The position numbers were made by a program, and so were the translations under genes. A stretch of DNA of 64,000 nucleotides, from assembly GCF_000025725.1 (NCBI RefSeq), contig NC_013943.1:124001-188000 (forward strand). Reading direction: 5' to 3'. The notes under the pieces were generated by a model. That model ran no database searches and was not told the origin of the DNA. It saw only the letters and a program-made list of their open reading frames with translations. The stretch comes from Denitrovibrio acetiphilus DSM 12809 (GTDB lineage Bacteria > Chrysiogenota > Deferribacteres > Deferribacterales > Geovibrionaceae). Below, piece after piece: positions 30,922-46,595 of this stretch (the stretch's first letter is position 1; every line of letters begins with the position of its first letter).

Positions 30922-31583
30922 AGTTTATTTCTGCACCGTCTTTCATTAAACCTGCAACCCGAATTGAAAATGTCAGATACCTGAAAGGGCTCATAGACGA
31001 GGTTGAGCTTCTTTATATGTGTAGCATGTCTGATTATGATTTTCCTGATGTGCGGGAAGTTTCTGAGCTGGCTGATATTGATATCCGTTATAATATCCAT
31101 ATGCCTTACGACAGAGACTTGTCAAAACAGTCCGAGTGGGATTTTATGGCGAGGTTCGCGGATGTGCTTGGCCCGCTGGGTGCTCATACCCACACTTTCC
31201 ACATCCAGCCGGAGGATAATTTTTTTAAGGGGCTTGAGTGGTTCGTGGGGCAGACGGGGCTGCCGGTGACACTTGAGAACGGCGGTTCAGATATAGAAAG
31301 TTTCCGGCTGTCAGATGACGACATCTGTCTCGATGTCGGTCATATGGTTATGTTTGAACAGGACATTTCAGCTTTCATCGAGTGCTATGCAGAACGTATT
31401 AAGATGTTTCATCTGCACGGGGTATGTGACGGTAAAGACCATCAGAGCATCAGGCATCTGCCTGAAGATATCAGAAAATTAGTTTTCGCTTTTGCTGACA
31501 AACACAGCCTGACGGTCAGCCTCGAGGTTTTTAACGAAGCCGACCTTAAAGACAGTCTGTTATTTCTTGATTATCGCAGTTGA
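30918..31583 (+). CDS. cbiR: CbiR-type cobamide-remodelling hydrolase (AP endonuclease 2 / TIM-barrel family)
   Basis: 221 residues of the sugar phosphate isomerase/AP endonuclease TIM barrel. Metal-binding candidates are in THTFHIQPE, VTLENGGSD, CLDVGHMVM, MFHLHGVCDG and VSLEVFNE. CbiR, described from Akkermansia, removes the nucleotide loop of cobamides so that the lower ligand can be replaced, and its genes cluster with cobamide assembly genes as here. The ATG at 30918 overlaps the cbiB stop as ATGA, showing membership of the assembly operon. Its last 24 bases overlap the convergent cbiL gene. CbiR is chosen over a generic isomerase from context plus fold. Confidence 0.75.
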   Translation: MKFISAPSFIKPATRIENVRYLKGLIDEVELLYMCSMSDYDFPDVREVSELADIDIRYNIHMPYDRDLSKQSEWDFMARFADVLGPLGAHTHTFHIQPEDNFFKGLEWFVGQTGLPVTLENGGSDIESFRLSDDDICLDVGHMVMFEQDISAFIECYAERIKMFHLHGVCDGKDHQSIRHLPEDIRKLVFAFADKHSLTVSLEVFNEADLKDSLLFLDYRS

Positions 31584-32246
31584 CAGATAACCAGCCTGAT
31601 CATCAGTTATCTCTTCTTTCAGAAGGTTATATGTCCTTTCATCTTCCAGTGTTACCCTGTGAAAAAGATATGCTGCGCTCAGATCATTTTCTTTTACAAA
31701 ATCTATTAATACATTCAACTTTTTATGCACTTTCATCAGCACAACAGAAGTGAAAGATTGCAGCACTGCGGCGAGTTCCTCTTTTGTTGCGGGCATTTCA
31801 ATAACGCAGAAATTTTCACCCTTTTCGCATAGCGGCAGTGCAACACTGTTTGCCCCTGCGGAAAATGCAGAGACCCCGGGAACCATCTCCATTTCGAAAC
31901 CACGCTCAAAGAGCCTGTTGCGTAGATAGTTAAAAGTGCTGTAAACGGGTGTGTCTCCTATGGTGACGTAGCATACTTTCTTATCGTCTTTCGCCATGTC
32001 TGCCATAGTGTCCGCCAGAGCGTCATAACGGATGTCGAGGTCAGCCTTTACACCTGTCATGGGGAAGAGATACCAATGTATTTTTTCAGCAGAGATGTAG
32101 TGTTTTACTATGTCCCCTGCTATGCTTCTGCCTGTTTTATCCGACTGGGGAACAATCACTATGTCTGCATCTTCCAGAATCCTTACAGCTTTGACTGTGA
32201 GAAGCTCCGGGTCTCCGGGACCAAGCCCTATTCCAAAAATTTTCAT
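31560..32246 (-). CDS. cbiL: Cobalt-precorrin-2 C20-methyltransferase
   Basis: About 228 residues of the tetrapyrrole methylase family: IFGIGLGPGDPELLTVKA (SAM-binding loop), YVTIGDTPVYSTFNYL and VPGVSAFSAGANSVALPL, where Ser-Thr after the GD loop marks the C20 group. ATG at 32246 has GAGG six bases upstream; the GTG at 32252 overlaps that site. It is transcribed alone, facing away from cbiP, and converges on cbiR. Confidence 0.92.
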   Translation of the reverse strand: MKIFGIGLGPGDPELLTVKAVRILEDADIVIVPQSDKTGRSIAGDIVKHYISAEKIHWYLFPMTGVKADLDIRYDALADTMADMAKDDKKVCYVTIGDTPVYSTFNYLRNRLFERGFEMEMVPGVSAFSAGANSVALPLCEKGENFCVIEMPATKEELAAVLQSFTSVVLMKVHKKLNVLIDFVKENDLSAAYLFHRVTLEDERTYNLLKEEITDDQAGYLSTAIIKK

Positions 32247-32337
32247 AATCACCTCAGATGGCTAATATACGAAAAGCTCTTGTGATGTGTCTAGTTTTTT
32301 TATAACATTATTTTTCATCTAAAGGCGGTTCAAAGTT

Positions 32338-33771
32338 ATGAAAACTCCTTCTATTATGTTTCAGGGGACAGGTTCCGGTGTTGGTAAAAGCATTGTCACA
32401 GCAGGCTTTTGCCGTCTTTTGTCAGATATGGGACTGCGTGTCGCCCCGTTCAAATCCCAGAATATGGCTCTGAACTCCGGCGTGGTGAACGGAAACCTTG
32501 AGATGGGGCGGGCACAGATACTTCAGGCAGAGGCGGCGCGTGTCACTCCTGATGTGCGTATAAATCCGATATTGCTGAAACCACAGGGGAATTCATCATC
32601 TCAGCTTGTGCGTATGGGGCACGTTGCAGGTGTTTACAGCGCCAGAGAATATTACACCCTTTCGCTGGAAAATTTCGAAATTGTAAAAGAGGCATACAGC
32701 TCACTCGCTGGTGAGTATGATGTTATCGTAATAGAAGGGGCGGGGAGTCCGGCGGAGATTAATCTTCAGGCAACGGACATAGTTAATATGAAGATGGCTC
32801 AGTACGCTTGTTCTGATGTTTATATCATTGGCGACATAGACAGAGGCGGAGTTTTTGCGTGGATGAAGGGGACATATGACCTTGTGCCTGAGAAGTCAAG
32901 AGAGCTCATTAAAGGCTTTATCATAAATAAGTTCCGTGGAGATGTGACACTGCTTCAGCCGGGGATTGAGATGTTTGCAGAATATGTCCCCGTGCCTGTG
33001 CTTGGTGTTCTCCCTTTTATGTATAACACTCTGGAAGAGGAGGATTCGCAGGATATCACATCAGACAGAATTGATGTTGAGAAGCCCACTGTGGGGGTCA
33101 TCAGACTGCCGAGGATATCGAACTTCTCCGACTTCGCACCGTTGAAGGCAAATGAGAGTATAAACCTGATATATATAGAAAAACCTGAACAGATCAAAAG
33201 CTGTGATGCACTCATCATTCCCGGCAGTAAAAGTACCATTTCAGACATGCTGTATATGCGTGAAAAGGGATTTGAGAAAGAGATAAAGTCTTTTAAAGGG
33301 GGCATTGTGGGTATATGCGGCGGATTTCAGATGTTGGGTGCGAATATACACGACCCGAAAGGCATTGAAGGGGACATAACCGTAGCAGAAGGGCTGGGAC
33401 TGCTGGCGATGGATACTGTCATCACCTCAGAAAAAAGACTTGAGCAGGTTGTCTATGCAGGTGCGGGACTGCTGAGGGGCTGTTCGTTGAAAGGGTATGA
33501 GATGCACATGGGCAGGACCGAAATCAATGGCGGATACGAACAGCTTTCAGAGGCGGAAAATGCTATCATCAGAAGTGGTAATGTGGCGGGGACATACCTT
33601 CACGGCATTTTCGAAGACGGGAAAGTTACTGAAAAGATATTTGCCATAGGCGGCATAAACATAAAAGCGGATGACTACATAAACGAAAAAGAGCGGCAGC
33701 TTAATGCTCTGGCGGGGATGATAAAAGAAAACTGCGATGTTGACAGTATTATGAAAGGGGCAGGGTTATGA
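32338..33771 (+). CDS. cbiP: Adenosylcobyric acid synthase (glutamine-hydrolysing)
   Basis: 477 residues. N-terminal ATP-dependent part with MFQGTGSGVGKSIVTAGFCR and PFKSQNMALNSGVV; C-terminal glutaminase with IPGSKSTISDMLYM, GICGGFQMLG (nucleophile Cys) and GYEMHMGRTE. It amidates side chains b, d, e and g of adenosylcobyrinate diamide. It opens cbiP-sirC-cbiA-cbiC and overlaps the next gene as ATGA. Confidence 0.96.
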   Translation: MKTPSIMFQGTGSGVGKSIVTAGFCRLLSDMGLRVAPFKSQNMALNSGVVNGNLEMGRAQILQAEAARVTPDVRINPILLKPQGNSSSQLVRMGHVAGVYSAREYYTLSLENFEIVKEAYSSLAGEYDVIVIEGAGSPAEINLQATDIVNMKMAQYACSDVYIIGDIDRGGVFAWMKGTYDLVPEKSRELIKGFIINKFRGDVTLLQPGIEMFAEYVPVPVLGVLPFMYNTLEEEDSQDITSDRIDVEKPTVGVIRLPRISNFSDFAPLKANESINLIYIEKPEQIKSCDALIIPGSKSTISDMLYMREKGFEKEIKSFKGGIVGICGGFQMLGANIHDPKGIEGDITVAEGLGLLAMDTVITSEKRLEQVVYAGAGLLRGCSLKGYEMHMGRTEINGGYEQLSEAENAIIRSGNVAGTYLHGIFEDGKVTEKIFAIGGINIKADDYINEKERQLNALAGMIKENCDVDSIMKGAGL

Positions 33772-34220
33772 TAACAAGATATCCGATACTGATGAAAATG
33801 CAGGGGAAACAGCTTTTGTTCGTAGGCGGCGGTGCTGTTGCGGAGCGGAAGATAAACTCACTTCTGGCGTGTGACCCTGCTATAACTGTTCTTTCGCCGG
33901 AGATAACAGAAAAGTTGCAGAGCCTCGCACAGCTTGGAGTCATAAAGTGGACTACAGAACTCCCGACGGAAACGTTTGACTATGTCTTCATCGCCACCAA
34001 TGAACGTGAAATTAATAAGGAAGTTTATGAGTTTTACAAAGGTAAGGCTCTTATAAATATCGCAGACGATCCTGAAGCGTGTGACTTTCACCTGCCTGCG
34101 ACAATCATCCATGGTGATGTGGTGATATCTATATCCACCGACGGCACAGACCCGTCAAAATCAAAACGTATCCGTGAAAAGCTGGAAGAGTGGATAAGCC
34201 AGGGCGGACTTGAGCAGTGA
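33768..34220 (+). CDS. Precorrin-2 dehydrogenase (SirC/Met8/CysG N-terminal type)
   Basis: 150 residues, shorter than Met8/CysG-N (about 200), so it covers the NAD-binding part and a reduced second domain. YPILMKMQGKQLLFVGGGAV, AERKINSLL, FIATNEREINKEVYEF and IADDPEACDFHLPATI are typical. It oxidises precorrin-2 to sirohydrochlorin, the substrate for cobalt insertion. A separate chelatase (CbiK) is encoded at 40954. It overlaps cbiP and cbiA. Confidence 0.88.
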   Translation: MITRYPILMKMQGKQLLFVGGGAVAERKINSLLACDPAITVLSPEITEKLQSLAQLGVIKWTTELPTETFDYVFIATNEREINKEVYEFYKGKALINIADDPEACDFHLPATIIHGDVVISISTDGTDPSKSKRIREKLEEWISQGGLEQ

Positions 34221-35515
34221 AGGGGTTTATGATCGCTGCCGACAGAAGCGGCTCCGGTAAAACGACAGTCACCACTGGGATTTTAAGAGAACTCGCAAGA
34301 ACAGGGCAAAATGTCGCTCCATTCAAGTGCGGCCCCGACTATATAGACACTCTTCATCACAGCAGGGCAGCAGGCAGACCAGCCCATAACCTTGACACTG
34401 TGATGCTCAGCGAAGATCAGGTGAGAGAAGTTTTTAGAGTGGGAGCCTTTGGCGCTGACATCTGTGTTGCAGAAGGCGTTATGGGCTTCTTTGACGGGAT
34501 ACGTCCAGACGGCTTTTACGGCAGTTCTCATCACGTGGCGAGTGTTATCGGTATGCCGGTTGTTCTGGTGATGAACTGTGCTTCTACATCATATTCTGTT
34601 GCTGCGACCCTGAGAGGCTTTCAGGTTATGTCAGATGTGCCTGTTGCCGGGGTTATATTGAATAATGTTGCTTCCGGTAATCATGAGAAACTGCTCAAAG
34701 AGGCTATACGGATGCATACAGATATACCTGTGCTGGGCTGTGTGCCGAGGCAGGGGGAGCTTATCGGTTCCAGACATCTGGGGATAAAGACAGCCTTTGA
34801 GGTAGACAACAGATATATGGACAGGTGCGCAGATTTGGTGTGCGAATATATTGATATGAACCGCCTAAAAGAACTTACAGTCGATGTGGTGCCTATTGAG
34901 AAAGATGTACAGGCTCAGGATAAGGTCTGTTACGTTGCATATGATAAGGCGTTTAACTTTTATTATGAAGCTAATTTTTATGAACTTCAAAAGCGTGGGT
35001 ATAGTATTAAGAAGTTTTCACCGCTCGCTGACGAAAGAGTTGACGGTGCAGACATGGTTTATCTCGGCGGCGGATACCCCGAGCTCTATGCTGAGGAACT
35101 GGCTAAATGTACTGGCTTTCTCAGGTCTGTCAGTGATTTCTCTGAGAGTGGCAAGCCCGTTTTGGCAGAATGCGGCGGGATGATGGCTCTTACAAAAGGG
35201 ATACACACAGAGAGCGGTTTCTGTGAAATGGCTGGTATTTTTGATGCCGAGTGCCGTATGATGGATAAGAGACAGGCATTGGGGTATGTGTGTGCTTTTA
35301 ATAATGATTATGAAGGACTTGTTGGGCATGAGTTTCATTACTCGAAACTTGAAAACGTCAACGAAAACTACTTTTTCAACCTTGAAAAACTGACAAATAA
35401 AAAACTGACACAGGACGGATTCCTGAAAGGAAAGACCTATGGTGGATACGCCCATTTCCACTTTATGAGTGATCCGACCATACTTGATATTATAATGGAG
35501 AGACAGCATGGATAA
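34217..35515 (+). CDS. cbiA: Cobyrinate a,c-diamide synthase
   Basis: 432 residues. N-terminal ATPase IAADRSGSGKTTVTTGIL and PFKCGPDYIDTLHHSRAAGR; C-terminal glutaminase YLGGGYPELYAEELA, LAECGGMMALTKGI and GHEFHYSKLE. It amidates the a and c side chains. The GTG start overlaps the sirC stop as GTGA; an ATG four codons later is the alternative. The gene ends inside the first codons of cbiC. Confidence 0.95.
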   Translation: MKGFMIAADRSGSGKTTVTTGILRELARTGQNVAPFKCGPDYIDTLHHSRAAGRPAHNLDTVMLSEDQVREVFRVGAFGADICVAEGVMGFFDGIRPDGFYGSSHHVASVIGMPVVLVMNCASTSYSVAATLRGFQVMSDVPVAGVILNNVASGNHEKLLKEAIRMHTDIPVLGCVPRQGELIGSRHLGIKTAFEVDNRYMDRCADLVCEYIDMNRLKELTVDVVPIEKDVQAQDKVCYVAYDKAFNFYYEANFYELQKRGYSIKKFSPLADERVDGADMVYLGGGYPELYAEELAKCTGFLRSVSDFSESGKPVLAECGGMMALTKGIHTESGFCEMAGIFDAECRMMDKRQALGYVCAFNNDYEGLVGHEFHYSKLENVNENYFFNLEKLTNKKLTQDGFLKGKTYGGYAHFHFMSDPTILDIIMERQHG

Positions 35516-36122
35516 AGGGCTTAAGATAGAGAGCGACAGCTTTGATATTATAGAAAATATGATTAACCTTTCAAAATTCTCTGAGATGGAGAGGCTGATA
35601 GTGAAGAAGCTGGTTCATACTACGGGTGATCCGGAATTTGCTGAGCTGACAGTTATTTCTGACGGCGGCGTCAATTCCGGCGTGCAGGCGCTGAAAGCTG
35701 GTAAGCCCGTTATCTGTGACGTTACGATGGTTACGGCGGGTATCACAAAAAGATATCTGGAAAAATGCGGTGTGGAAGTGCTCTGTTTTATAAATCATCC
35801 GGATGTTCTCCGGATTTCAAAAGAGACAAACCAGACCAGATCAGAGGTTGCGATGGAATATGCCGCAGCGGAATATCCCGACGCAGTTTATGCCATAGGT
35901 AATGCGCCTACAGCTCTTTTGAGACTGCTGGAGCTGAAGCGTGGAGGGAAGGTTGACCCGTCTTTTATCGCGGGGCTGCCGGTTGGTTTTGTGAAAGCTG
36001 CGGAGTCAAAAGAAGAACTTGCAAAGAGTGATGTACCTCATGTGACTAACAGAGGCACGAAGGGGGGGAGTCCATGTGCGGCGACTGTGATTAACGGGCT
36101 TCTTACTCTGGCTGCACAGTGA
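35508..36122 (+). CDS. cbiC: Cobalt-precorrin-8 methylmutase
   Basis: 204 residues. ERLIVKKLVHTTGDPEFAEL contains the catalytic His; VICDVTMVTAGITKR, YAIGNAPTALLRLLEL and RGTKGGSPCAATVINGLL are CbiC signatures. It moves a methyl group from C11 to C12 to form cobyrinate. Last gene of its block; the final 20 bases overlap convergent cbiJ. Confidence 0.95.
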   Translation: MDKGLKIESDSFDIIENMINLSKFSEMERLIVKKLVHTTGDPEFAELTVISDGGVNSGVQALKAGKPVICDVTMVTAGITKRYLEKCGVEVLCFINHPDVLRISKETNQTRSEVAMEYAAAEYPDAVYAIGNAPTALLRLLELKRGGKVDPSFIAGLPVGFVKAAESKEELAKSDVPHVTNRGTKGGSPCAATVINGLLTLAAQ

Positions 36123-36783
36123 CCATGTCTATTCCGCACTTTTCACATGCAGATATCTTTTCTGCATAACCGCTTCCTGTTCCACTGTTTTTAGTGACAA
36201 AACAGTCAGCATTTATCTCGTGTATCAGGGCGATGTTGAATGACTCTGAAAACGGCCCCTGCATGGCGATTATCCGGGAATAATGGAATCCTGCATCAAG
36301 ACAGGCTTGTAAAGATTTTTCGAATGGGAGCACCCGGGCGTATGACACATCTGCAATACCTGCAAACTTATCTATGTTGTTGCTGCCAGTGGTTATTAGA
36401 ACTGATTTATAGCCTTTTTCCTGCACAAATGCAGCAGCATCATCGTATGATGTAAACATGTGCATCCTGTTGTAGTGAATATCTTCAAGTGTCCGTATTT
36501 TATTTATATATGGAATGTTAAGAGCGGTGCACACTTCAATAGCATTTTTTGTTATCTCTTTTGCGTGCGGGTGGGTGCTGTCTATCACCTGCTTAATTGA
36601 TTTCTCTTTGATAAATTTGGTTAAACTCCCTGTGGTAAATCTTGTATGAAGAACTTTTGACGGATATCTTTTGTTAAATTCGCTATAGCCGTATTCCGTT
36701 GTAACAGAGATAATATAGTCGCTATTGCTGAGTGTTTTAATAATTTCGTGTGTGGTTGATGTTCCGCCAAGAATTAGTATCAT
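36103..36783 (-). CDS. cbiJ: Cobalt-precorrin-6A reductase
   Basis: 226 residues of the CbiJ/CobK family: MILILGGTSTTHEIIKTL, VIDSTHPHAKEITKNAIEVC and MQGPFSESFNIALI, with TKNSGTGSGYAEKISA near the C-terminus. It reduces the macrocycle with NAD(P)H. It is the last gene of the minus-strand block cbiD-E-F-G-H-J and overlaps cbiH as ATGA. Confidence 0.92.
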   Translation of the reverse strand: MILILGGTSTTHEIIKTLSNSDYIISVTTEYGYSEFNKRYPSKVLHTRFTTGSLTKFIKEKSIKQVIDSTHPHAKEITKNAIEVCTALNIPYINKIRTLEDIHYNRMHMFTSYDDAAAFVQEKGYKSVLITTGSNNIDKFAGIADVSYARVLPFEKSLQACLDAGFHYSRIIAMQGPFSESFNIALIHEINADCFVTKNSGTGSGYAEKISACEKCGIDMVTVQPE

Positions 36784-37523
36784 GTGCTGTATTTCTCCGT
36801 GTAGCCTCGTGGCGAAACCATTTTACCTGATTTTATAAATGTTTTAGTGCTGCCGACAATCACCACTGTACTCATGTCGATCTGTTCAAAATCAAGCTGG
36901 CGAAGTGTTGTTACGCAAATCTGTTCATCTTCTCTGTCACAGTTTTTGACCCATCCGCATGGCAGGTCTCCTCTGGCAGTCATAAATTTTTCCACTGCGT
37001 ATGGCAGTTGTGTTGTACGTTTTCTGCTTCTTGGGTTATAAATTGCGCAGACAAAATCACCTATATTGACAGCGTCAATGCGCTTTCTGATAAGCTCCCA
37101 TGGAGTCAGCAAATCGCTCATAGACAATATTACCATATCGTCAGAGACTGGTGCACCCAGTTTTGCAGATGCAGAGAGAGCAGACGTTATGCCGGGGATT
37201 ATCTCTATTGCGTCTACATCTTCTGACAGTTCAAAAACAAGTGATGCCATAGAATAAAGCGAAGCATCACCGCCGCATACCAGAGCAACTTTAAGCCCCT
37301 TCGCGCAATGCTCAAGAGCAACTTGAACCCTCTCCATCTCTCCTGTCATGCCGTTTGTGAAAACTTCTGTCCTGGCATTGATTAGCGGAGTAATTTGTTC
37401 CACATAGGGTTTGTAGCCACATATCAAATCAGCGTTTTTTATGACGTCCGCTGCTTTGGGAGCAGTAAGAGAGATGTCTCCCGGACCGTTGCCTATTACA
37501 TAAAGTTTTCCTCTATTTTCCAC
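36780..37523 (-). CDS. cbiH: Cobalt-precorrin-3 C17-methyltransferase (ring contraction)
   Basis: 247 residues, tetrapyrrole methylase family. LYVIGNGPGDISLTAPKAA and GYKPYVEQITPLI at the N-terminus are typical of CbiH/CobJ, as are VALVCGGDASLYSMASLVFE and AIYNPRSRKRTTQLP. It methylates C17 and contracts the ring. The start is GTG at 37523, just inside the cbiG 3' end; no in-frame ATG precedes the SAM loop. Confidence 0.93.
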   Translation of the reverse strand: MENRGKLYVIGNGPGDISLTAPKAADVIKNADLICGYKPYVEQITPLINARTEVFTNGMTGEMERVQVALEHCAKGLKVALVCGGDASLYSMASLVFELSEDVDAIEIIPGITSALSASAKLGAPVSDDMVILSMSDLLTPWELIRKRIDAVNIGDFVCAIYNPRSRKRTTQLPYAVEKFMTARGDLPCGWVKNCDREDEQICVTTLRQLDFEQIDMSTVVIVGSTKTFIKSGKMVSPRGYTEKYST

Positions 37524-38289
37524 CTGCTAAGACCTCTCTCGCAATTGCTATTGTAACATCGCCGTATATTTTTCGTTTCAGTATCAGTTCTGCATTCACC
37601 CCTGCAAGAACAGCAGATGGCTCCGCTACTCCGGGGATGCCGAAATGCTTCATGGGCGCATCGTATGCGGTGAAGCAGTAGTTGTCGTTTTTATAGTAAC
37701 TTTCAGGTATAAATCTCAGGTAGAGCTCCAGCTCCTGTGCTGCTTCTATGATGCCTGCCTCATCTTTTTTTAGCCACGCAGAAGACATCATGCGTATGCT
37801 GTCGAGAGTGATATGAGCCTCTGCACATGCCGATTTAACTGCATTTATCACAGTGTCTTTCCCTGTGCCTCTCCTGCACCCTATGCCGAGTATATGTATT
37901 CTATTTGCTTCTGTCGCAGTGGTTATAACCGGTTGTGCTCCTGTTATCGAGCTGACTAGATGAGCCAGAATATTTGCGCCCCCTTCGTGTCCTGAAAGAG
38001 TGCTTATGGCGAATCTGCCCACTTCGTCGCATGTCACAACGGCGGGGTCTGTGTATTTAGATTTTACATGAGGGGCTATCATACGTGTCACAATTCCCTG
38101 TGCCATAACAGCTATTATGCTGTTATAATTGCTGAATATTTCGGTAAAGCAGTCGGCTACTGTTGTAAAGTTTCCGCCGAGCTTTTCGGGGTAATACAGC
38201 TTTGAGGGTATCTCTGTGTTAATGAGTTTGGCGAGTTTAAGCCCTTTTGTGGTGACAGCTATTACCGCAGTATTACTTCCTGTAGTCAT
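37513..38289 (-). CDS. cbiG: Cobalt-precorrin-5A hydrolase
   Basis: About 258 residues from ATG 38289. AVMAQGIVTRMIAPHVKSK, VVTCDEVGRFAISTLSGHEG and LGIGCRRGTGKDTV are CbiG signatures; CbiG removes the two-carbon fragment as acetaldehyde during ring contraction. AAGGA lies eight bases before this ATG. A longer frame to 38328 sits inside cbiF and is not used. It overlaps both neighbours. Confidence 0.92.
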   Translation of the reverse strand: MTTGSNTAVIAVTTKGLKLAKLINTEIPSKLYYPEKLGGNFTTVADCFTEIFSNYNSIIAVMAQGIVTRMIAPHVKSKYTDPAVVTCDEVGRFAISTLSGHEGGANILAHLVSSITGAQPVITTATEANRIHILGIGCRRGTGKDTVINAVKSACAEAHITLDSIRMMSSAWLKKDEAGIIEAAQELELYLRFIPESYYKNDNYCFTAYDAPMKHFGIPGVAEPSAVLAGVNAELILKRKIYGDVTIAIAREVLAGGK

Positions 38290-39028
38290 GAGAGAAATCC
38301 TTGTTATACAGCTTACTGTACTGTTCAAGACTGTCTGAAAGTGCTTTGCCTATTATTATCAGGGCGTGTTTGTTAATGCCTGATAAATTGTATTTTTCTT
38401 CTATGTCGGCGAAAGAGCCTCTGATGATTTTTTCGTCCTGCCAGCTCGCACGGTAAACAACTGCAACAGGTGTTTCCTCTGACCATCCGTTTGCACGGAA
38501 TCTGTTCAGTACCTCTGAGAGCCTTGTGACAGAGAGGTAGAGGGCAAATGTTCCGCCGTGCTTTGATAGCAGTTCTATCTTTTCATCGTCCGGTACAGGT
38601 GTACGCCCCTCTATGCGGCTTATGATAACCGTCTGGGACTGCTCCGGTGCTGTCAGCTCTGTCCGGAGAGCCGCCGCTGCTGCAAAAAGAGCTGTTATAC
38701 CGGGGATAACCTCATAGGTAATGCCCAGCTTGTCAAGCTCCAGCATCTGTTCTTTTATTGCTCCGTAAAGGCTCGGGTCTCCTGTGTGGAGGCGTGCGGT
38801 TTTTGTGCCTTTTGAGGCGGCCGTTTTTATTATGTTAATTATTTCGTCAAGGTTCATTGACGCAGAATCGTATATTTCTGCATCTTCTCTGCAATGAGTG
38901 AGAATATCTTTTGAAACCAGACTTCCGGCGTATATGACCGTTTTGCACTCTTTTATGCGGTTAACAGCTTTCAGGGTTATCAGCTCAGGATCGCCCGGTC
39001 CGGCTCCTATGAAAAAGACATCACTCAT
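38273..39028 (-). CDS. cbiF: Cobalt-precorrin-4 C11-methyltransferase
   Basis: 251 residues, tetrapyrrole methylase family. VFFIGAGPGDPELITLKAVN, VIYAGSLVSKDILTHC, RLHTGDPSLYGAIKEQ and VIPGITALFAAAAALRTELT match CbiF/CobM. GGAGAGAGC precedes the ATG, which overlaps the cbiE stop. Confidence 0.94.
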   Translation of the reverse strand: MSDVFFIGAGPGDPELITLKAVNRIKECKTVIYAGSLVSKDILTHCREDAEIYDSASMNLDEIINIIKTAASKGTKTARLHTGDPSLYGAIKEQMLELDKLGITYEVIPGITALFAAAAALRTELTAPEQSQTVIISRIEGRTPVPDDEKIELLSKHGGTFALYLSVTRLSEVLNRFRANGWSEETPVAVVYRASWQDEKIIRGSFADIEEKYNLSGINKHALIIIGKALSDSLEQYSKLYNKDFSHDYRK

Positions 39029-39638
39029 GCTCTCTCCTGATGCCTATCACGACTGAGAGTGAACTGTTATTAAGCTTTTCTGTATCTGTAGGGTTTTGTA
39101 TTGCAGTTATTTTCTCATTTTCAAGCCCGAGGTCTTCCATTACAAATATATCGTGGGACTCAATCAGACCGATAAGCTTGCTGACTATATTTGCTGCTGA
39201 GTTTTTATTATCGCATAGGATCAGAAATTTATCATCGATTATGCCGTCAATGACCTCTGCATCACGTCCGTGAACAGAGATGAAACGGGCGTCCTGCCAA
39301 GGCTCACACAGCTTTGCAAAGGCAAGCTGGACAACGCTTACGCCTGCAACGACGTTAACGCTTTTTCGTCCGAACTCCCTGATGATGCTTTTGCCAAGGC
39401 TGTAGAAACCTGCATCCCCTGTCACAAGCACTGCAATCTTTTTGTCTAAATTCTCTTTTACAAGCTGTATTGTGCTCTCAACAAGGTGATCGGAGGAGAG
39501 CATTACATATTCAGGGTAGAGGTCTTTAAATTTCTTTGACCCTATCAGGATGTCAGCATTATAAAGTGCCTGCACAGCCTCCCATGTCAGATGGTCTATG
39601 CTGCCAGGTCCCATTGAAACAATAGTTATATTAGCCAT
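39021..39638 (-). CDS. cbiE: Cobalt-precorrin-7 C5-methyltransferase, CbiE only
   Basis: 205 residues: the length of a stand-alone CbiE, without the CbiT (C15-methylating, decarboxylating) part found in CobL fusions. ITIVSMGPGSIDHLTWEAVQ, VLVTGDAGFYSLGKSI and VVAGVSVVQLAFAKL are typical, as is SVHGRDAEVIDG. No cbiT gene is seen beside it or elsewhere in the window. AAGGA precedes the ATG by a few bases. Confidence 0.92.
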   Translation of the reverse strand: MANITIVSMGPGSIDHLTWEAVQALYNADILIGSKKFKDLYPEYVMLSSDHLVESTIQLVKENLDKKIAVLVTGDAGFYSLGKSIIREFGRKSVNVVAGVSVVQLAFAKLCEPWQDARFISVHGRDAEVIDGIIDDKFLILCDNKNSAANIVSKLIGLIESHDIFVMEDLGLENEKITAIQNPTDTEKLNNSSLSVVIGIRREHE

Positions 39639-40605
39639 CGTAGTGTCCTTTTAGATTTCCTGCCATATCAAAGAGTACCACCTGCACTCTTTCAAATGTA
39701 TAATCTTTTTTAACTTTTTCAGAGATTTCTTTGGCAATCGGGGTGAGTTCTGCAATTTTGCATATCTCTTCGACAGTGTTGAACTCACCCTCAAGCCTAA
39801 GTCTGTCCGCTATATAGCCCTGAGCCATTGGGGACATTTTCGAATGTGTATTATAATGACCCATTGCTATTTTAGCAAGCTTGCCGGGGTGTCCCGCGAG
39901 GGTAATTTTACTGATTCCCCGTTTTTTTGCATGATCAAGGGCGAATCCGGCGTAGTTGCTCATGATAACTGTTTGCACCTCTGGCATGAGTTTCTGCAAG
40001 TGTTTTTCGCCTATTTTGCCGGGAACGAGACAGATCTCTTCTGCTCCGTTTTCGCACTGAACGTCTATCTCGCATGCAATTGTGGCAGTGAGTGCCTCTA
40101 CGCTCATGGGCTCGACTATCCCTGTTGTGCCTATGATGGATATTCCACCTATGACGCCAATCCGCGAGTTGAATGTTTGCTCTGCGAGCCTCTCTCCGTC
40201 GGGAACGCTTATGGTGACAGTGCATGAGGTGATACCTGTGCTCAAGACGTTCGCCTTTATCATCTGCATGGGCACAGGGTTTATGGCGGATCCTCCCACA
40301 GGAATCTGAAGCCCCGCTTTTGTGACCAGCCCTACACCTATTCCCCCTCTGACAGTTACACGTCCGCTATTGTCCGGAGCTACTGCGGCACAGATGAGCG
40401 CACCGTGGGTGATGTCGGGGTCGTCTCCTGCGTCTTTTATAATACACGCTCGTGAGGTGTCGCATGACTGCACTGGGATTGTGAGCTCTGAGCCGTCCGG
40501 CAGTTCAATATCAACTTTTTCGGGTTTTACCCCTGTTGAGATGAAGATCGCATGTGCCTTTGCCGCTGCCGTAGCCGCCGAGCCAGTTGTAAAACCTTTT
40601 TTCAT
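39631..40605 (-). CDS. cbiD: Cobalt-precorrin-5B C1-methyltransferase
   Basis: About 324 residues. MKKGFTTGSAATAAAKAHAI opens it, as in most CbiD proteins; KDAGDDPDITHGALI, GGIGVGLVTKAGLQIPVG and SNYAGFALDHAKKRGI follow. It methylates C1. ATG at 40605 is chosen by family match although no clear ribosome binding site precedes it; a TTG start at 40641 is unlikely. It starts the minus-strand block and is divergent from the riboswitch-controlled operon. Confidence 0.93.
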   Translation of the reverse strand: MKKGFTTGSAATAAAKAHAIFISTGVKPEKVDIELPDGSELTIPVQSCDTSRACIIKDAGDDPDITHGALICAAVAPDNSGRVTVRGGIGVGLVTKAGLQIPVGGSAINPVPMQMIKANVLSTGITSCTVTISVPDGERLAEQTFNSRIGVIGGISIIGTTGIVEPMSVEALTATIACEIDVQCENGAEEICLVPGKIGEKHLQKLMPEVQTVIMSNYAGFALDHAKKRGISKITLAGHPGKLAKIAMGHYNTHSKMSPMAQGYIADRLRLEGEFNTVEEICKIAELTPIAKEISEKVKKDYTFERVQVVLFDMAGNLKGHYDG

Positions 40606-40659
40606 AGAAACAATAGTGTTGTAAAAAAAAACGAGGGTCAAGAAAATGTTTCTTTTTCG

Positions 40660-40688
40660 TTGACTGTTTTACGCTTTTAATGTGAAAT
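40660..40688 (+). promoter_or_regulatory. Possible promoter of the cbiK operon
   Basis: TTGACT, 17 bases, TGAAAT. The -10 matches consensus at four of six positions. Transcription would begin near the 5' edge of the cobalamin aptamer. Confidence 0.45.
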
Positions 40689-40689
40689 A

Positions 40690-40868
40690 CGGGCAGGGTG
40701 TAGGCAAATTCAGGGAATTTGGTGTAAATCCAAAACAGTCCCGCTACTGTAACCGGAACGAAACTGCAATAGCCACTATTTAGGGCATCAGACCTATGGA
40801 CGAATGGGAAGGCGCAGGAGTAGGAAAGCTAACTAACTAAGCCGGAAGTCAGGATATCTGATCTGCTG
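40690..40868 (+). ncRNA. Cobalamin (adenosylcobalamin-type) riboswitch
   Basis: The core reads GGGAATTTGGTGTAAATCC, AACAGTCCCGCTACTGTAAC and, after a long peripheral arm, GGAAAGCTAACTAACTAAGC with the B12 box AAGCCGGAAGTCAGGAT. These are the conserved parts of the cobalamin riboswitch in order. Exact ends are approximate. It sits in the leader of cbiK. About 65 bases lie between aptamer and the GGAGG ribosome binding site, with an AT-rich hairpin (40899-40924) but no clear terminator, so control of translation is the more likely mode: cobamide should repress the cbiK operon. Confidence 0.93.
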
Positions 40869-40953
40869 ATAAACTTTACGAGGATAGAGGTTCCTGTTTC
40901 AACTTTAAACAACTCTTTAAAAGTTCACCCATACAAAATTCCAGGAGGTACTG

Positions 40954-41913
40954 ATGAGAATATTGTCATTAGTCGTGTTAACACTCCTTTTGTCAGGGGT
41001 GGTCTATGCATCAGGAGACGGTCATATGAAAGAGGAGAAATCTGCGATAGTTATCACAGCTTTTGGTACAAGCTACGAATCAACACTTAACTCTATTCTT
41101 GCGATAGTGAAAGATACTGAAAAGGAGTTTCCGCAAACACCTGTGAGACTCGCCTTCACATCCAACATTATCAGAAAGATATGGAACCAAAGAGACATGG
41201 ATGAAGATTATAAAAAAGAACATCCTGAAGTCCCTGCACAGCTTTATAAAGTGAAAAATGTTCTCGGCGCTGTTGCTGACCTTCAGAACGAAGGATACAG
41301 AAATATCGTTGTACAGTCCACTCATGTGGCAAACGGCGAAGAATTTCAGGATCTTGAGTCTTATGTGAACGGACTCCGCTCAATACACACTATTAAAGAG
41401 AAATTTCAGCCGTTTAATGCCATAGCACTCGGGAAACCGCTCACAGGTACAACATCCCACGCAGAAGATGTTGAAATTCTGGCAAAAACTCTGGGTGATG
41501 ACATCAAGCAGGCAGAGAAAGAGGGCGCAGCGCTTGTTTATATGGGGCACGGTAACGAACATATGGCTCAGGGTGTATACTATGAACTAGAGATCGTTAT
41601 GAACAGAATGTATGATGTGCCTGTTGCTGTCGGTCTTGTTGAAGGTCTTCCCGATCTTGACACTGTTCTTGATAAACTTAAGAACGCAGGAACCAAAAAA
41701 GTTCTGCTTAAGCCCCTGATGATAGTTGCGGGTGATCACGCCAACAACGACATGGCAGGTGATGAAGACGACGCATGGAAAACAATACTTACCAAAGCCG
41801 GTTATGACGTTGACCCTGTTCTTGAAGGGCTTGGCGACAAAGCAGGAATAAGGAAAATATTCATTAAACACATTCAGGAGGCTGCGGCTCAGGTCGGAAT
41901 CGCACTGAAATGA
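40954..41913 (+). CDS. cbiK: Exported sirohydrochlorin cobaltochelatase
   Basis: 319 residues. MRILSLVVLTLLLSGVVYA is a signal peptide with a likely cut after Ala19, so the mature protein (about 300 residues) should be periplasmic, like CbiK-P of Desulfovibrio. Metal-site segments are MGHGNEH (His199) and VAGDHANNDMAGDEDDAW (His262), with AFGTSYESTLN at the start of the fold. The family inserts Co2+ into sirohydrochlorin. AGGAGG precedes the ATG. It is the first gene after the cobalamin riboswitch, and no cytoplasmic CbiK or CbiX is seen in the window. Confidence 0.9.
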   Translation: MRILSLVVLTLLLSGVVYASGDGHMKEEKSAIVITAFGTSYESTLNSILAIVKDTEKEFPQTPVRLAFTSNIIRKIWNQRDMDEDYKKEHPEVPAQLYKVKNVLGAVADLQNEGYRNIVVQSTHVANGEEFQDLESYVNGLRSIHTIKEKFQPFNAIALGKPLTGTTSHAEDVEILAKTLGDDIKQAEKEGAALVYMGHGNEHMAQGVYYELEIVMNRMYDVPVAVGLVEGLPDLDTVLDKLKNAGTKKVLLKPLMIVAGDHANNDMAGDEDDAWKTILTKAGYDVDPVLEGLGDKAGIRKIFIKHIQEAAAQVGIALK

Positions 41914-42758
41914 AAGAGATTGAAGTATCGAACCTGACTAAAAATTTCGGCGGTGTTGCTGCTGTGGACGGGATAAGCTTTACTGTGGAAACAGGCAGTA
42001 TTCTTGCATTTCTCGGTCCAAACGGTGCGGGGAAAACCACAACGGTTAATATGCTCACCGACCTGCTTCAGCCGACATCAGGGGAGATACGCTACCGCGG
42101 TGAAGTTTTCAGCTCTGACAGAAGCGATCTGAAGCGTAACATCGGCGTTGTGCCTCAGCATAACAATGTGGACAGAGACCTCTCTGTTTACCAGAATCTT
42201 AAGGTTCATGGGATGCTGTTCGGTATGGGGCGCGGTGAGCTTGAAAGACGTATAGAAGAGGCGATGGAGTTTTCCGGTCTGGGCGGACATGCGGGGAAAC
42301 CTGCGGGGAAGCTTTCCGGCGGAATGAAGCGCAGGCTTATCATAGCAAGGGCGCTTCTGCATGAACCGTCTATCCTCTATCTGGACGAGCCGACGGCAGG
42401 GCTTGACGCATCTGTCAGGCGTACAATGTGGGACTTTATCCGCAGTATTAATGTTAATAAAAACTGCACAGTGTTCCTTACCACTCACTATATCGAAGAA
42501 GCGGAGATGCTCTCTGACAACGTGATAGTGATAGACAGGGCAAAGATCGTCGCAGAGGGTGACGCTCGGAGCCTTATGGAACGAATCGGACACTGGGCAC
42601 TTGATATACTCGTAAACGATGTGACAGAGACAGAGTTCTTTGTCACCAGAGAAGATGCTCTTGCGCGGCTTTCTGCTACAAGCGGGACGGCAAAGCTGCG
42701 TGAGACAAATCTTGAGGATGTCTATCTCTCCATTACAGGCAGGAGGATAGACGTATGA
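41910..42758 (+). CDS. ABC-2-type transporter ATP-binding protein
   Basis: 282 residues. Walker A GPNGAGKTTTVNML, Q-loop VVPQHNNVDRDLSVYQN, signature KLSGGMKRRL, Walker B ILYLDEPTAGLD and the switch His of FLTTHYIEEAEM are intact. The C-terminal extension resembles the DrrA/NodI/CcmA export group. It pairs with the permease that overlaps it downstream. The substrate is unknown; its place between cbiK and a corrinoid-type importer, all under a cobalamin riboswitch, suggests a tetrapyrrole, corrinoid or metal complex. Confidence 0.85.
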   Translation: MKEIEVSNLTKNFGGVAAVDGISFTVETGSILAFLGPNGAGKTTTVNMLTDLLQPTSGEIRYRGEVFSSDRSDLKRNIGVVPQHNNVDRDLSVYQNLKVHGMLFGMGRGELERRIEEAMEFSGLGGHAGKPAGKLSGGMKRRLIIARALLHEPSILYLDEPTAGLDASVRRTMWDFIRSINVNKNCTVFLTTHYIEEAEMLSDNVIVIDRAKIVAEGDARSLMERIGHWALDILVNDVTETEFFVTREDALARLSATSGTAKLRETNLEDVYLSITGRRIDV

Positions 42759-43498
42759 AGCTGAACGGCGTAAAGGGGATATACTACAGAGAGTTTCTGG
42801 TACTTTACAGCAGGCGCTGGAAGGTGCTGATGTCATCGTCCATCTCGCCCCTGCTTTTTCTGCTGGCTTTTGGATATGGGGTGGGGCGTTCGTCCAGTGT
42901 GGACGGTGTCGGTTATCTTGCCTTTCTCATACCAGGTCTGATAGCGATGAGCAGTATGAACCAAAGCTACGGCATATCCACAGAGATAAATATCTCACGC
43001 TTTTACTTTAAGGTCTTTGACGAATACCTTCTGGCTCCGATCAGGCGCTGGGAGATAGTTGCCGGAGAGATGTTCTATGGTGTCACACGGGGATTTATCC
43101 CTGTTTTTATAGTCGGCGTGTATGCAGTCTTTATAGGGGTAAAGCTGACCGTCACTCCGCTGTTTTTTGTGAGCATGCTTCTGCATCTTTTCATATTTTC
43201 GCTTCTGGGGCTGATTGTTGCCCTTATGGTTAAAAATCACGGCGATCAGTTCGCTGTAAATACATTTGTGATAACGCCTATGATCTTCCTTTCGGGGACA
43301 TTTTATCCGGTGGAGAAGATGCCTGTCATTGTGCAGTGGATAGCAAAAATATTTCCACTGGCGTATTCAACGAAACTTATCAGGTATTCACTTATTGGCG
43401 GACAACTTAATGTAGGCAGGTATCTGCTGATTCTTCTTCTGATATTTGCCGTTCTGTTTGCGTTTGCCTATCGTGTTGTGAGCAGGGTGGAGGCATGA
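42755..43498 (+). CDS. ABC-2-type transporter permease
   Basis: 247 residues with six predicted membrane helices, of the NodJ/DrrB ABC-2 permease type: SSISPLLFLLAFGYGVGR, FLIPGLIAMSSMNQSYG, FDEYLLAPIRRWEIVAGEM and MIFLSGTFYPVEKMPVIVQW. Members mostly export. ATGA overlaps on both sides show that it is made with the ATPase and the following BtuC-like permease. Confidence 0.85.
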   Translation: MKLNGVKGIYYREFLVLYSRRWKVLMSSSISPLLFLLAFGYGVGRSSSVDGVGYLAFLIPGLIAMSSMNQSYGISTEINISRFYFKVFDEYLLAPIRRWEIVAGEMFYGVTRGFIPVFIVGVYAVFIGVKLTVTPLFFVSMLLHLFIFSLLGLIVALMVKNHGDQFAVNTFVITPMIFLSGTFYPVEKMPVIVQWIAKIFPLAYSTKLIRYSLIGGQLNVGRYLLILLLIFAVLFAFAYRVVSRVEA

Positions 43499-44445
43499 AA
43501 ATCTTTTTTGCCGTGTTTCTGGTGATTGTTGTGGGTGTTTGTTCTCTGACAGGTTCAACAGATATCAATATAACTTCAATGACAGATATCCAGAGCAATA
43601 TCTTCTGGGCAATACGTGTGCCGAGGGTGTTATTTGCCGTTGTTATTGGCGGGATGCTCGGGCTGAGTGGTTCTGTTTATCAGCTTGTGCTGAAGAACCC
43701 TCTGGCAGACAGCTTTACTACCGGTGCGGCGTCATCGTCTGCGCTGGGTGCCGTTCTTGCAATCGCTCTTGGTTTCCCTGTGGTGCTGATATCGCCTATG
43801 GCTCTTCTGACAGGACTGTGCGGGCTTATGCTGGTTTACAGGCTGTCGTCCTCAAGGGGGCGTGTGGTGAGTCCTGTGACGATGATACTTGCCGGTGTTG
43901 TGCTGAATATCGTTGCGTCATCGGTGATCGGTTTTACCAAGTTCTATTTCGAAGAATCACTTTCGTCCATTGTTTTCTGGCTGATGGGCGGATTTTTTAT
44001 AGTTTCATATCAGAAGATTTCTGCGGGGCTTTCAGTTCTGCTGGTTGTATACGCTTATTTTTACCTGCGTTCGGGGCGGCTTAATCTGCTTTCTATGGAT
44101 GAGTATTCAGCTGAGACAGCCGGTGTGAATGTGCGTGTAGAGCGAATGTTTGCATTTGTTCTTTCTACCCTTCTGGTGGCTGTGGCAGTTAGTTTCAGCG
44201 GTCTTATCGGTTTTGTGGGGCTTATCGTGCCGCATGTAGCTCGGAGCTTTTTCGGCTCTGATATGAGGACAAATATCTACTATTCAACCATTTTCGGCGG
44301 ACTGCTTCTGGTGGTGTCGGACGCTGTGGCGAGAACTGTTATCCCTGGCGGGACAGAGCTTCCTGTGGGGATAATAACAGCTATTCTGGGCGGTTTTTTC
44401 TTCCTTTATATGTTGAAAAGACGCAGAGGGCAGGTGTGGGCATGA
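43495..44445 (+). CDS. FecCD/BtuC-family ABC importer permease
   Basis: 316 residues, about nine to ten membrane helices. RVPRVLFAVVIGGMLGLSG, LKNPLADSFTTGAASSSALG, ILAGVVLNIVASSVIGF and GFVGLIVPHVARSFFGSD are typical of permeases for vitamin B12, siderophores and heme. The riboswitch and cobamide neighbours point to corrinoid or cobalt-complex uptake. Confidence 0.88.
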   Translation: MKIFFAVFLVIVVGVCSLTGSTDINITSMTDIQSNIFWAIRVPRVLFAVVIGGMLGLSGSVYQLVLKNPLADSFTTGAASSSALGAVLAIALGFPVVLISPMALLTGLCGLMLVYRLSSSRGRVVSPVTMILAGVVLNIVASSVIGFTKFYFEESLSSIVFWLMGGFFIVSYQKISAGLSVLLVVYAYFYLRSGRLNLLSMDEYSAETAGVNVRVERMFAFVLSTLLVAVAVSFSGLIGFVGLIVPHVARSFFGSDMRTNIYYSTIFGGLLLVVSDAVARTVIPGGTELPVGIITAILGGFFFLYMLKRRRGQVWA

Positions 44446-45149
44446 TACGCACTGGAAGCATAGATTATAAAAGAGGCGGGTTTCACCTGAGCCTCGATTC
44501 GTTTGAGATAAGACGTGGCGAGAAAGTAGCACTTCTTGGTGAGAACGGCTCCGGAAAAAGCACTCTGATGCACCTCATGGTTGGTGTTCTCGGCAGTGCA
44601 GATGTGTATTATATGGAGAATTCCATCAAAAGCATGGGTTATGCAGAGCGGGCAAGAATACTGTCATTTTTACCTCAGATACCCGAGGTGTCGTTCCCTT
44701 TTACTGTTTTTGAAGTTGTGCGGTTCGGACGATTTACAGATGCGCGCAAAGCGGATGCTTCAACTGAGACAAGCCTTAAAATGGCAGACATGTACCACCT
44801 GAAAGACAGACCGTTCAGCGAGCTGTCCGGCGGTGAGAAGAGGCGGGCAATGCTCGCCAGAGTGATAAATCAGGATACCCCTGTTCAGTTCTTTGACGAA
44901 CCTGTTTCCATGCTGGACATAAGGCACAGCCTTTCCATGCTGGAGCTCATGATAGATAGTGAAAAAACTGTAATTACATCCATCCACGACGTAAACCTTG
45001 CCCTCGAATACTTCGACAGGCTGATGTTTCTGAAGGATGGAAAAATGCTGTACGATGTCTCCAGGGCAGATGTCACAGCAAAGATGATATCCGAGGTGTT
45101 TGATGTTAAGGTTGGTACTGCTGCTGGTCGTTACAGCTTTTACCTTTAG
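44442..45149 (+). CDS. BtuD/FecE-family ABC importer ATP-binding protein
   Basis: 235 residues. Walker A LLGENGSGKSTLMHLM, signature FSELSGGEKRRAMLARVI, Walker B VQFFDEPVSMLDI and switch His in ITSIHDVNLALEYFD. ATG at 44442 overlaps the permease stop as ATGA; a GTG at 44436 is the alternative. The 3' end overlaps the binding-protein gene by 47 bases, an unusually long overlap for co-directional genes. Confidence 0.87.
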   Translation: MIRTGSIDYKRGGFHLSLDSFEIRRGEKVALLGENGSGKSTLMHLMVGVLGSADVYYMENSIKSMGYAERARILSFLPQIPEVSFPFTVFEVVRFGRFTDARKADASTETSLKMADMYHLKDRPFSELSGGEKRRAMLARVINQDTPVQFFDEPVSMLDIRHSLSMLELMIDSEKTVITSIHDVNLALEYFDRLMFLKDGKMLYDVSRADVTAKMISEVFDVKVGTAAGRYSFYL

Positions 45150-45894
45150 TGCTTTTGCCGCAGAGAGAGTGGTGCTTCTGGCACCTGCTGCTGCGGATAT
45201 TATGGAAAAGCTAGGCTGCGGTGAATATATCGTAGGAAAGACAAAGAGTGTGGAAGAATTCCCAGATGCTGTGAAAGTTGGGAGCCATATCCGTCCTAAT
45301 CTGGAGCTGATAATATCTCTCAGCCCTGATCTGATAATAATTCCTTCTAATAGATTTTTTACAGAAAAGATGGTGCAGGACGCTGGTGTCCCTGTCGCTG
45401 AATACAATCCTTCAACTCTGGAAGATATCCTGAAAGATATTGATAAGCTGGGCAGGCTGATGGGAAAAGAGGCAGAGGCGAAAGAGCTTAACGGTAAACT
45501 CAGCAAAATGCTTGAATCTGTGGTTCCCCCGGCAAAGAGCCCAAGTGTGTTTTTTGAAGTTATGCAGATTCCATACACCATCGCAGGCGGGGGGAATATC
45601 GCCGTGGACATAATAAACCGTGCGGGGGGCGCTTATCATGAACATAGTAAAAAGAAGATGATAAGGTATTCCATGGAAAATGCCGTTGCAGACAATCCCG
45701 ATATATACATCTATCAGGTTGGACCCATGAATAAGAACCCTCAGCCTCCGCAGGATAGAGAGATTTTCAAAACTATGAAATCTGAATATGTTCAGGTGGA
45801 TGAGAGGGAGTTTTCAAGGGCAAACAGCCTGTCTTTTGAAAATGTACTGAAGCTGAATGCTTTATTCAACAGTTTCAGCGAGAGGTCAAAATGA
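45103..45894 (+). CDS. BtuF/FecB-like periplasmic binding protein
   Basis: 263 residues. Signal peptide LRLVLLLVVTAFTFSAFA, then VVLLAPAAADIMEKLGCGEY, IRPNLELIISLSPDLIII and GGGNIAVDIINRAGGAYHEH, the layout of class III binding proteins with two lobes joined by a helix. ATG at 45103 has GAGGTG five bases upstream; a TTG three bases earlier is less likely. It should deliver the ligand (corrinoid or cobalt chelate by context) to the BtuCD-like pair. Confidence 0.85.
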   Translation: MLRLVLLLVVTAFTFSAFAAERVVLLAPAAADIMEKLGCGEYIVGKTKSVEEFPDAVKVGSHIRPNLELIISLSPDLIIIPSNRFFTEKMVQDAGVPVAEYNPSTLEDILKDIDKLGRLMGKEAEAKELNGKLSKMLESVVPPAKSPSVFFEVMQIPYTIAGGGNIAVDIINRAGGAYHEHSKKKMIRYSMENAVADNPDIYIYQVGPMNKNPQPPQDREIFKTMKSEYVQVDEREFSRANSLSFENVLKLNALFNSFSERSK

Positions 45895-46595
45895 AAGAAC
45901 TTATAATCATAGGCGCAGGGCTCGGGCCCCAGTCTATTACCCTCCAGGGGATAAATGAACTTAAACGTGCTGATATTGTTTTATATGACAGACTTTTGCA
46001 TCCCGGCATATTGGATTTTGCCCGGGGGAAGGAGCTTGTTCAGGTTGGAAAAACTCCCTATAAGCACTGTATTCGTCAGGATGAGATAAACGACCTTATC
46101 AAAAAATGTCTTTCTGAAGGGAAGATAGTTGCCAGACTAAAAGGGGGGGACAGCACTGTTTTTGCCCGTTCTATCGAAGAGATTGAGGCGGCAGAAGAGA
46201 TGGGAGCTGACGTTATGATTGTCCCCGGTGTGACTTCCGCTGCGACACTTTCTGCAAAGATGCGAGCGGCTCTGACAGACAGGCGCACAGCGTCTGGAGT
46301 GGTGTTCATTACAGGTCACCCGAAAAACGGTGAAATAGAAGATACATATAACTGGAAAGCTCTGGCAGGACTCGGTCTGAGCATCGTCATCTATATGGGT
46401 GTTAAGAATGCCCCTAGAATATGCAGAAAGCTTGTGGAATTCGGCATGAGTGAGCTGACATCTGTTATGATCGGCGAAAAGCTGGAGACAGAACAGGAGC
46501 GGCTTTTCAGGTGTACTCTCGGAACGATTTCCGAAACCATTGAAGGCAATATGATAGAGAACCCTGCAACTATTGTTATCGGTGATGTGGGGTAG
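45891..46595 (+). CDS. cobA: Uroporphyrinogen III C-methyltransferase
   Basis: 234 residues, stand-alone SUMT. LIIIGAGLGPQSITLQGINE is the SAM-binding loop with Leu in place of the usual Pro-Gly. VLYDRLLHPGILDFARGKEL, RLKGGDSTVFARSIEEIEA and VPGVTSAATLSAKMRAALT are typical. It methylates C2 and C7 to form precorrin-2, the entry to cobamide, siroheme and heme d1. ATGA overlap with the binding-protein gene. It ends six bases from the convergent kinase stop. Cobalamin-riboswitch control of this branch-point enzyme is sensible feedback. Confidence 0.92.
   Translation: MKELIIIGAGLGPQSITLQGINELKRADIVLYDRLLHPGILDFARGKELVQVGKTPYKHCIRQDEINDLIKKCLSEGKIVARLKGGDSTVFARSIEEIEAAEEMGADVMIVPGVTSAATLSAKMRAALTDRRTASGVVFITGHPKNGEIEDTYNWKALAGLGLSIVIYMGVKNAPRICRKLVEFGMSELTSVMIGEKLETEQERLFRCTLGTISETIEGNMIENPATIVIGDVG

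Follow-up and report, generated by a model that had tools for sequence, protein, structure and literature searches.

We analysed a 64-kb stretch of the Denitrovibrio acetiphilus DSM 12809 genome (hereafter the window; C1:124001-188000 of a complete single-contig genome of 3,222,077 bases), which contains an operon joining an exported CbiK-family chelatase to a BtuCDF-type importer. The operon begins with a cobalamin riboswitch aptamer (RF00174, 40679..40879, + strand; 74.4 bits, with a gathering score of 31.5), the sole Rfam match within the window, followed by cbiK (40954..41913; PF06180, 256 bits), encoding a class II (sirohydrochlorin) cobaltochelatase with an N-terminal Sec signal peptide. 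Profile matches place behind it an ABC-2 family ATPase of DrrA-like type (41910..42758), an ABC-2 family permease (42755..43498; PF01061, 100.9 bits), a btuC-like FecCD permease (43495..44445; PF01032, 248 bits), a btuD-like ATPase whose nearest family is the heme importer ATPase (44436..45149), a btuF-like substrate-binding protein predicted to bind tetrapyrroles (45100..45894; PF01497) and cobA (45891..46595; TIGR01469, 208.9 bits, above cut-off), the uroporphyrinogen-III C-methyltransferase (SUMT) that makes precorrin-2. All seven genes lie on the + strand and each overlaps the next by 4-50 nucleotides. The preliminary description of this DNA was right about the riboswitch and the overlapping operon but miscounted six genes, as seven are present and it had itself named seven.

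The export signal of CbiK is of a textbook Sec type (MRILSLVVLTLLLSGVVYA-S, residues 1-19), and a perfect AGGAGGT sits 5 nucleotides ahead of the ATG, confirming the clear signal peptide claimed earlier. His197 and His262 align with the catalytic His145 and His207 of the Salmonella enzyme, and the alignment shows these histidines to be kept in 79-80 of 84 exported CbiKs. The protein scores below the NCBIfam equivalog cut-off for SiroCoChCbiK (185.9 bits vs 400), and its nearest solved structures are the "heme-binding protein FetB" (9b86) and CbiKP (2xvx). We rejected a heme-binding CbiKP type for this CbiK because both heme-ligand histidines of the D. vulgaris protein, His96 and His103, are missing, with Q and N at those columns.

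All parts of a BtuCDF-type system are present, namely the FecCD permease, the BtuD-type ATPase and a Peripla_BP_2 protein. The best NCBIfam models for the permease are those of BtuC, although the BtuC- and BtuF-like proteins both fall far under the respective cut-offs (184.8 vs 461 and 35.1 vs 234). The AlphaFold2 model of the BtuF-like protein (predicted local distance difference test, pLDDT, 94) has IsdE, RhuT, V. cholerae BtuF and ShuT as its nearest solved folds, mostly tetrapyrrole binders, and the modelled fold fits heme and B12 binders alike. His63, Arg220 and Arg240 are invariant across the aligned family, and the alignment suggests that His63 adjoins the place of the axial tyrosine in ShuT/HmuT. 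A putative exporter (the ABC-2 pair), a chelator-synthesis gene (cobA) and an importer (btuCDF) share this single operon, as they would in a metallophore system. Conservation of the gene order across related genomes had been named at the outset as a point to examine; the order is seen again in other genera, which excludes a chance arrangement.

We searched the complete genome. It encodes a single CbiK, that of the operon; the genome-wide family search for CbiX returned only this protein, and a hidden CbiX or second CbiK was therefore rejected. The lone CbiM-family protein is a NikMN fusion (MHMADALLS, PDGLE) lying between nikR and a CbiQ-like gene; its place beside nikR marks it as a nickel importer, and we accordingly rejected it as the cobalt importer of the genome. 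CbiM with an MHIM[ED]G start is absent genome-wide, other transporter families (NiCoT, HupE, CbtA/X) not having been searched. Thus the lack of CbiMNQO and of a cytoplasmic chelatase, first described for the window, is true of the whole genome as regards class II chelatases and CbiM.

The same association of traits was found across phyla. Scanning 84,980 species yielded 80 CbiK loci, and CbiK copies, CbiX, CbiD and CbiM were counted in 50 of the scan's genomes; signal peptides were assigned by a simple rule and by eye, CbiM was scored by its N-terminal MHIM[ED]G motif, and BtuC was scored near CbiK or as a moved block. Exported CbiKs have a Sec signal in Desulfobacterota-type bacteria and are mostly lipoproteins in Bacillota and Spirochaetota, and they stand repeatedly beside BtuCDF, often within cbi clusters. 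An exported CbiK is the sole class II chelatase in 26 of the 50 genomes. Adding 17 Deferribacterota gives 43 exported-only genomes, which together with 11 cytosolic-only ones make up 54 genomes with a single CbiK. BtuC accompanies 40 of the 43 exported-only CbiKs vs none of the 11 cytosolic ones, and CbiM is distributed in the opposite way (0/43 vs 5/11, Fisher p=1.5e-4). When six CbiX genomes are added, CbiM occurs in 11 of 17 cytosolic genomes vs 0 of 43 (p=3.6e-8). This contrast is if anything understated, since in G002, negative by the motif, a CbiMQO-type importer adjoins the cytosolic cbiK. Outside Deferribacterota and "deltaproteobacteria" there are 18 exported-only genomes; 15 of them have no CbiM/NikM homologue at all, and a full CbiD is present in 14 of these 15.

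On a tree of the 54 genomes, export changes at least five times (starred branches). Of 5 independent pairs, 4.6 show BtuC following export (p 0.0625, the lowest value that five pairs can give), and CbiM changes opposite to export in 2.7 of 5 pairs (p 0.25) and never in the same direction; because such pairs are too few, the exclusion of CbiM rests on the counts and on a contrast within one genus described below. Among 124 CbiK genes export changes 16 times, with BtuC adjacency following in 7.6 pairs vs 1.0 (median p 0.04). The cytosolic Chrysiogenota-like CbiKs are nested among exported ones in the tree and apparently lost the signal peptide and BtuC together. An exception to the pairing is Desulfobulbus rhabdoformis, in which a CbiK without a detectable signal peptide adjoins BtuCDF (L096:9001-12684); this species also owns two exported CbiKs.

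A cobalamin riboswitch lies upstream of cbiK or its operon in 28 of 37 scanned exported loci, which span Deferribacterota, Desulfobacterota-type bacteria and Bacillota. This control ties the module to B12 and cobalt and not to heme. It marks the pathway and not the mode of insertion, since cytosolic cbiK loci can be riboswitch-controlled too. In Geothermobacter two cobalamin riboswitches stand back to back (L086:8404-8867), one for cbiK and one for a divergent ABC2-btuCDF block.

Within Deferribacterota, CbiD is present in 30 of 51 genomes, and in those having CbiK the gene is present once, unaccompanied by a true CbiX; one genus with CbiX lacks a full-length CbiK. The order cbiK-ABC2-ABC2-btuCDF-cobA is shared by this genus, g2 and f6, and f8 has the same block with a diverged CbiK. 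Four genomes have cbiK-btuCDF-cobA without ABC-2, and others have cbiK-cobA alone. Every CbiK of the phylum that adjoins btuCDF has a signal peptide, and the CbiKs of the Chrysiogenota-like genomes (L052-L054) and those of L055, L056 and L059 have neither signal peptide nor btuCDF. In g4 the exported CbiK has no adjoining btuCDF, yet all 5 genomes hold an ABC2-ABC2-btuCDF block elsewhere, which indicates joint movement of the five transporter genes. The within-genus contrast comes from g5: G006 has an exported CbiK with BtuCDF and no CbiM, as opposed to G008 and G009, whose CbiK is cytosolic, whose cbi cluster includes a CbiM-family gene and whose cbiK has no BtuCDF nearby. The CbiM motif is full in G009, the N-terminus of the G008 protein is cut off, and a whole-genome search of G008 found no BtuC. 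The cytosolic CbiK of L052-L054 has its CbiMQO-type neighbour in G002 (L220).

The Bacillota loci contain an extra lipoprotein between CbiK and BtuF. Sequence searches of this partner were uninformative, with a match to PF05031 below cut-off, and its likeness was settled by fold: in Foldseek its model matches the NEAT domains of IsdH, IsdB and IsdX1. Members of this uncharacterised family in Bacillota B12 operons are L108:9901-10797, L111:9923-10852, L117:9904-10542, L132:9386-10288 and L141:9855-10772, and the partner is fused to CbiK in L110, L124 and L136. On these models, the simplest reading of the Bacillota version is a tetrapyrrole relay at the cell surface. In L106, L125, L128 and L136 the exported CbiK consists of two CbiK domains fused in tandem.

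Taken together, these patterns suggest that in many anaerobic B12 producers the exported CbiK-BtuCDF module quite probably substitutes for a cytosolic chelatase plus CbiMNQO. We consider it about an even chance that it does so as a B12-regulated extracytoplasmic module, in which a tetrapyrrole (probably sirohydrochlorin) is charged with cobalt and the complex is then imported. Here we infer the direction of transport, the cargo and the role of the ABC-2 pair as follows. Sirohydrochlorin made in the cytosol would reach the periplasm; its cytosolic source is the SirC/Met8-like precorrin-2 dehydrogenase of 150 amino acids encoded in the window (33768..34220, + strand; TIGR01470, 93 bits, above cut-off). 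In this lineage the ABC-2 pair is a candidate for carrying the empty ring out. The exported CbiK would put Co2+ into a tetrapyrrole, most likely sirohydrochlorin, the BtuF-like protein would capture the cobalt complex, and BtuCD would bring it in for CbiL and the remaining cobalt-early pathway, with CobA supplying further precursor. Profile matches place the genes of that pathway within 29962..40641, with cbiB, cbiP, cbiA and cbiC on the + strand and cbiL, cbiJ, cbiH, cbiG, cbiF, cbiE and cbiD on the - strand. That the cargo is sirohydrochlorin itself we rate a shade short of even. More tentatively, we propose a widespread second cobalt route in which the cell exports its own intermediate, loads it with cobalt and re-imports it, sirohydrochlorin acting as a "cobaltophore" and metal selection taking place outside the cytoplasm; such a route would stand in for CbiMNQO and the cytosolic CbiK/CbiX among Deferribacterota, Desulfobacterota-type bacteria, Bacillota, Spirochaetota and further groups.

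Several observations weigh against this interpretation. The 80 loci represent the closest matches to this CbiK rather than a random sample, and absences are soft because many comparison genomes are metagenome-assembled. In three exported-only genomes BtuC is absent within 4.5 kb, and 17 other genomes hold both exported and cytosolic chelatases. NikMN might leak cobalt into the cytosol, where the SirC/Met8-like protein could chelate it. The ABC-2 pair does not adjoin cbiK-btuCDF in four Deferribacterota genomes (L040-L043), and the Bacillota operons are likewise without it, leaving these loci without a candidate exporter of the ring. Moreover, the organism's own heme-uptake operon (C1:839000-849500; L067:1-10501), which encodes a TonB receptor, HutW, HutX and FecBCD, also ends in a similar ABC-2 ATPase/permease pair, so that two tetrapyrrole importers of this genome each have such a pair. 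In view of these absences and of the second pair, export of sirohydrochlorin by the ABC-2 proteins is rather less likely than not, and it is the weakest link of the proposal. The core idea of the preliminary description, cobalt inserted outside and the complex re-imported, is thus partly supported: export tracks BtuCDF and the absence of CbiM, and the finding named beforehand as counting against it, a cytoplasmic chelatase together with a cobalt transporter elsewhere in the genome, did not turn up as far as class II chelatases and CbiM go. It is weakened by the ABC-2 pair and by an internal start that may also give a cytosolic CbiK.

This start, overlooked at first, consists of a Shine-Dalgarno (SD)-like AGGAG and a second in-frame ATG (41026) at 41013..41028 on the + strand, 24 codons on and directly past the signal peptide, and is suggestive of a cytosolic CbiK. 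An internal SD-like sequence and ATG right behind the signal peptide of the exported CbiK are likewise present in L040-L051 and L072. They are written in different codons across lineages, a possible case of a dual-targeted protein from a single gene.

According to the first alternative, the first ATG gives an exported accessory CbiK and the internal ATG the cytosolic chelatase by which cobalt is actually inserted. An SD-like sequence (<= -6.6 kcal/mol) precedes the internal ATG in 13 of 13 exported CbiKs of Deferribacterota f1-f4, a further point against extracytoplasmic loading, compared with a background of 5.9% of 938 other internal ATGs, and the codons used differ between lineages. Among Gram-negatives, the ATG with SD occurs in 13 of 25 exported-only genomes vs none of 12 that have a cytosolic chelatase as well (p=0.002, uncorrected for kinship). 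Shuffling synonymous codons, on the other hand, gives p 0.03-0.24 per gene, about 0.02 when combined. The signal is also lacking from Deferribacterota f6 and f8 and from 16 of 17 lipoprotein-type exported-only CbiKs; without an internal start, these call for another answer. The presence of BtuCDF and the loss of CbiM are also left unexplained. We therefore rejected dual initiation as a general answer and regard it as unlikely overall, although the evidence is suggestive enough to make it the main rival within Deferribacterota.

A second alternative, which we judge rather improbable, is that the operon encodes a salvage importer for corrinoids or cobinamide under a B12 riboswitch, with CbiK as a helper and cobalt inserted in the cytosol, for instance by the SirC/Met8-like protein. 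Riboswitch-controlled BtuCDF systems normally take up corrinoids, such a SirC/Met8-like protein is encoded within the window, and yeast Met8 and CysG chelate metals. However, no BtuB or other TonB-dependent receptor was found in or adjoining the operon, the remaining genome not having been searched for BtuB, and the BtuC and BtuF scores lie far below their cut-offs. In Bacillota and Deferribacterota the module sits inside cbi biosynthesis clusters, and salvage does not explain why export tracks the loss of CbiM. Least probable is a heme or iron system, akin to the heme or metal scavenging raised in the preliminary description, in which the exported CbiK would bind heme or (de)chelate porphyrins, as is reported for D. 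vulgaris CbiKP and P. gingivalis FetB/IhtB, and BtuCDF would import heme iron: the nearest CbiK structures, the IsdE/ShuT-like fold of BtuF and the NEAT-like Bacillota partners speak for it, but the B12 riboswitch, the Q and N in place of the CbiKP heme ligands, the occurrence of the module in genomes with CbiD (49/50) and the separate heme operon with its own TonB receptor, HutW, HutX and FecBCD speak against it.

The operon can be compared with several known systems. Lobo and co-workers reportedly described a periplasmic CbiKP in Desulfovibrio in 2008 and 2017. As in Desulfovibrio, the operon unites an exported CbiK, btuCDF and a riboswitch; unlike here, D. vulgaris also has a cytosolic CbiK and its CbiKP carries the heme-ligand histidines. 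Desulfovibrio cbiK and btuCDF have been placed under a common B12 element, and CbiK-bearing deltaproteobacteria were found without any known cobalt transporter (PMC545781); neither an ABC-2 pair nor cobA, both present here, is noted with the Desulfovibrio genes. The resemblance to Sulfurospirillum multivorans is one of gene order, cbiK followed by btuCDF within a B12 synthesis operon: its norcobamide operon holds cbiK-btuC-btuD-btuF, described as an incomplete cobamide transport system (PMC7755780). FetB/IhtB of P. gingivalis (9b86), an exported CbiK-family protein, sets a precedent for metal insertion outside the cytoplasm, surface insertion of Mn into protoporphyrin by FetB having been reported (PMC13402209, PMC13227078). 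Its context differs, being one of porphyrin and heme in an organism said to get iron from heme. We know of no B12 riboswitch for FetB/IhtB. The Salmonella-type CbiMNQO with cytosolic CbiK/CbiX performs the same step, cobalt into sirohydrochlorin, but there the metal travels to the ring, whereas here the ring seems to travel to the metal. Siderophore and metallophore systems share the FecCD/BtuCD-class importer, with the difference that the carrier here would be an enzyme-loaded biosynthetic intermediate, and the NEAT-like and IsdE-like surface proteins of the Bacillota version recall the Isd heme relay.

In the literature covered, outside of which most subscription journals lay, we found nothing on a sirohydrochlorin shuttle or cobaltophore, no paper joining these facts into an extracytoplasmic cobalt-loading route, and no report of the CbiM exclusion, the Bacillota lipoprotein version or the NEAT partner. 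Thirteen B12-producing species have been listed without a known cobalt transporter (PMC2667541), and the pattern offers a testable answer to such cases as well as to the role of the periplasmic CbiK. If correct, the metal specificity of an essential cofactor would be determined outside the cytoplasm. That would matter both for how cells keep iron, nickel or zinc from being inserted and for the competition for cobalt in the gut and in sediments, whose communities include bacteria with the lipoprotein version.

Finally, the genome has three cobalamin riboswitches, that of this operon and two others located upstream of nrdD and metE, which encode B12-independent isozymes.

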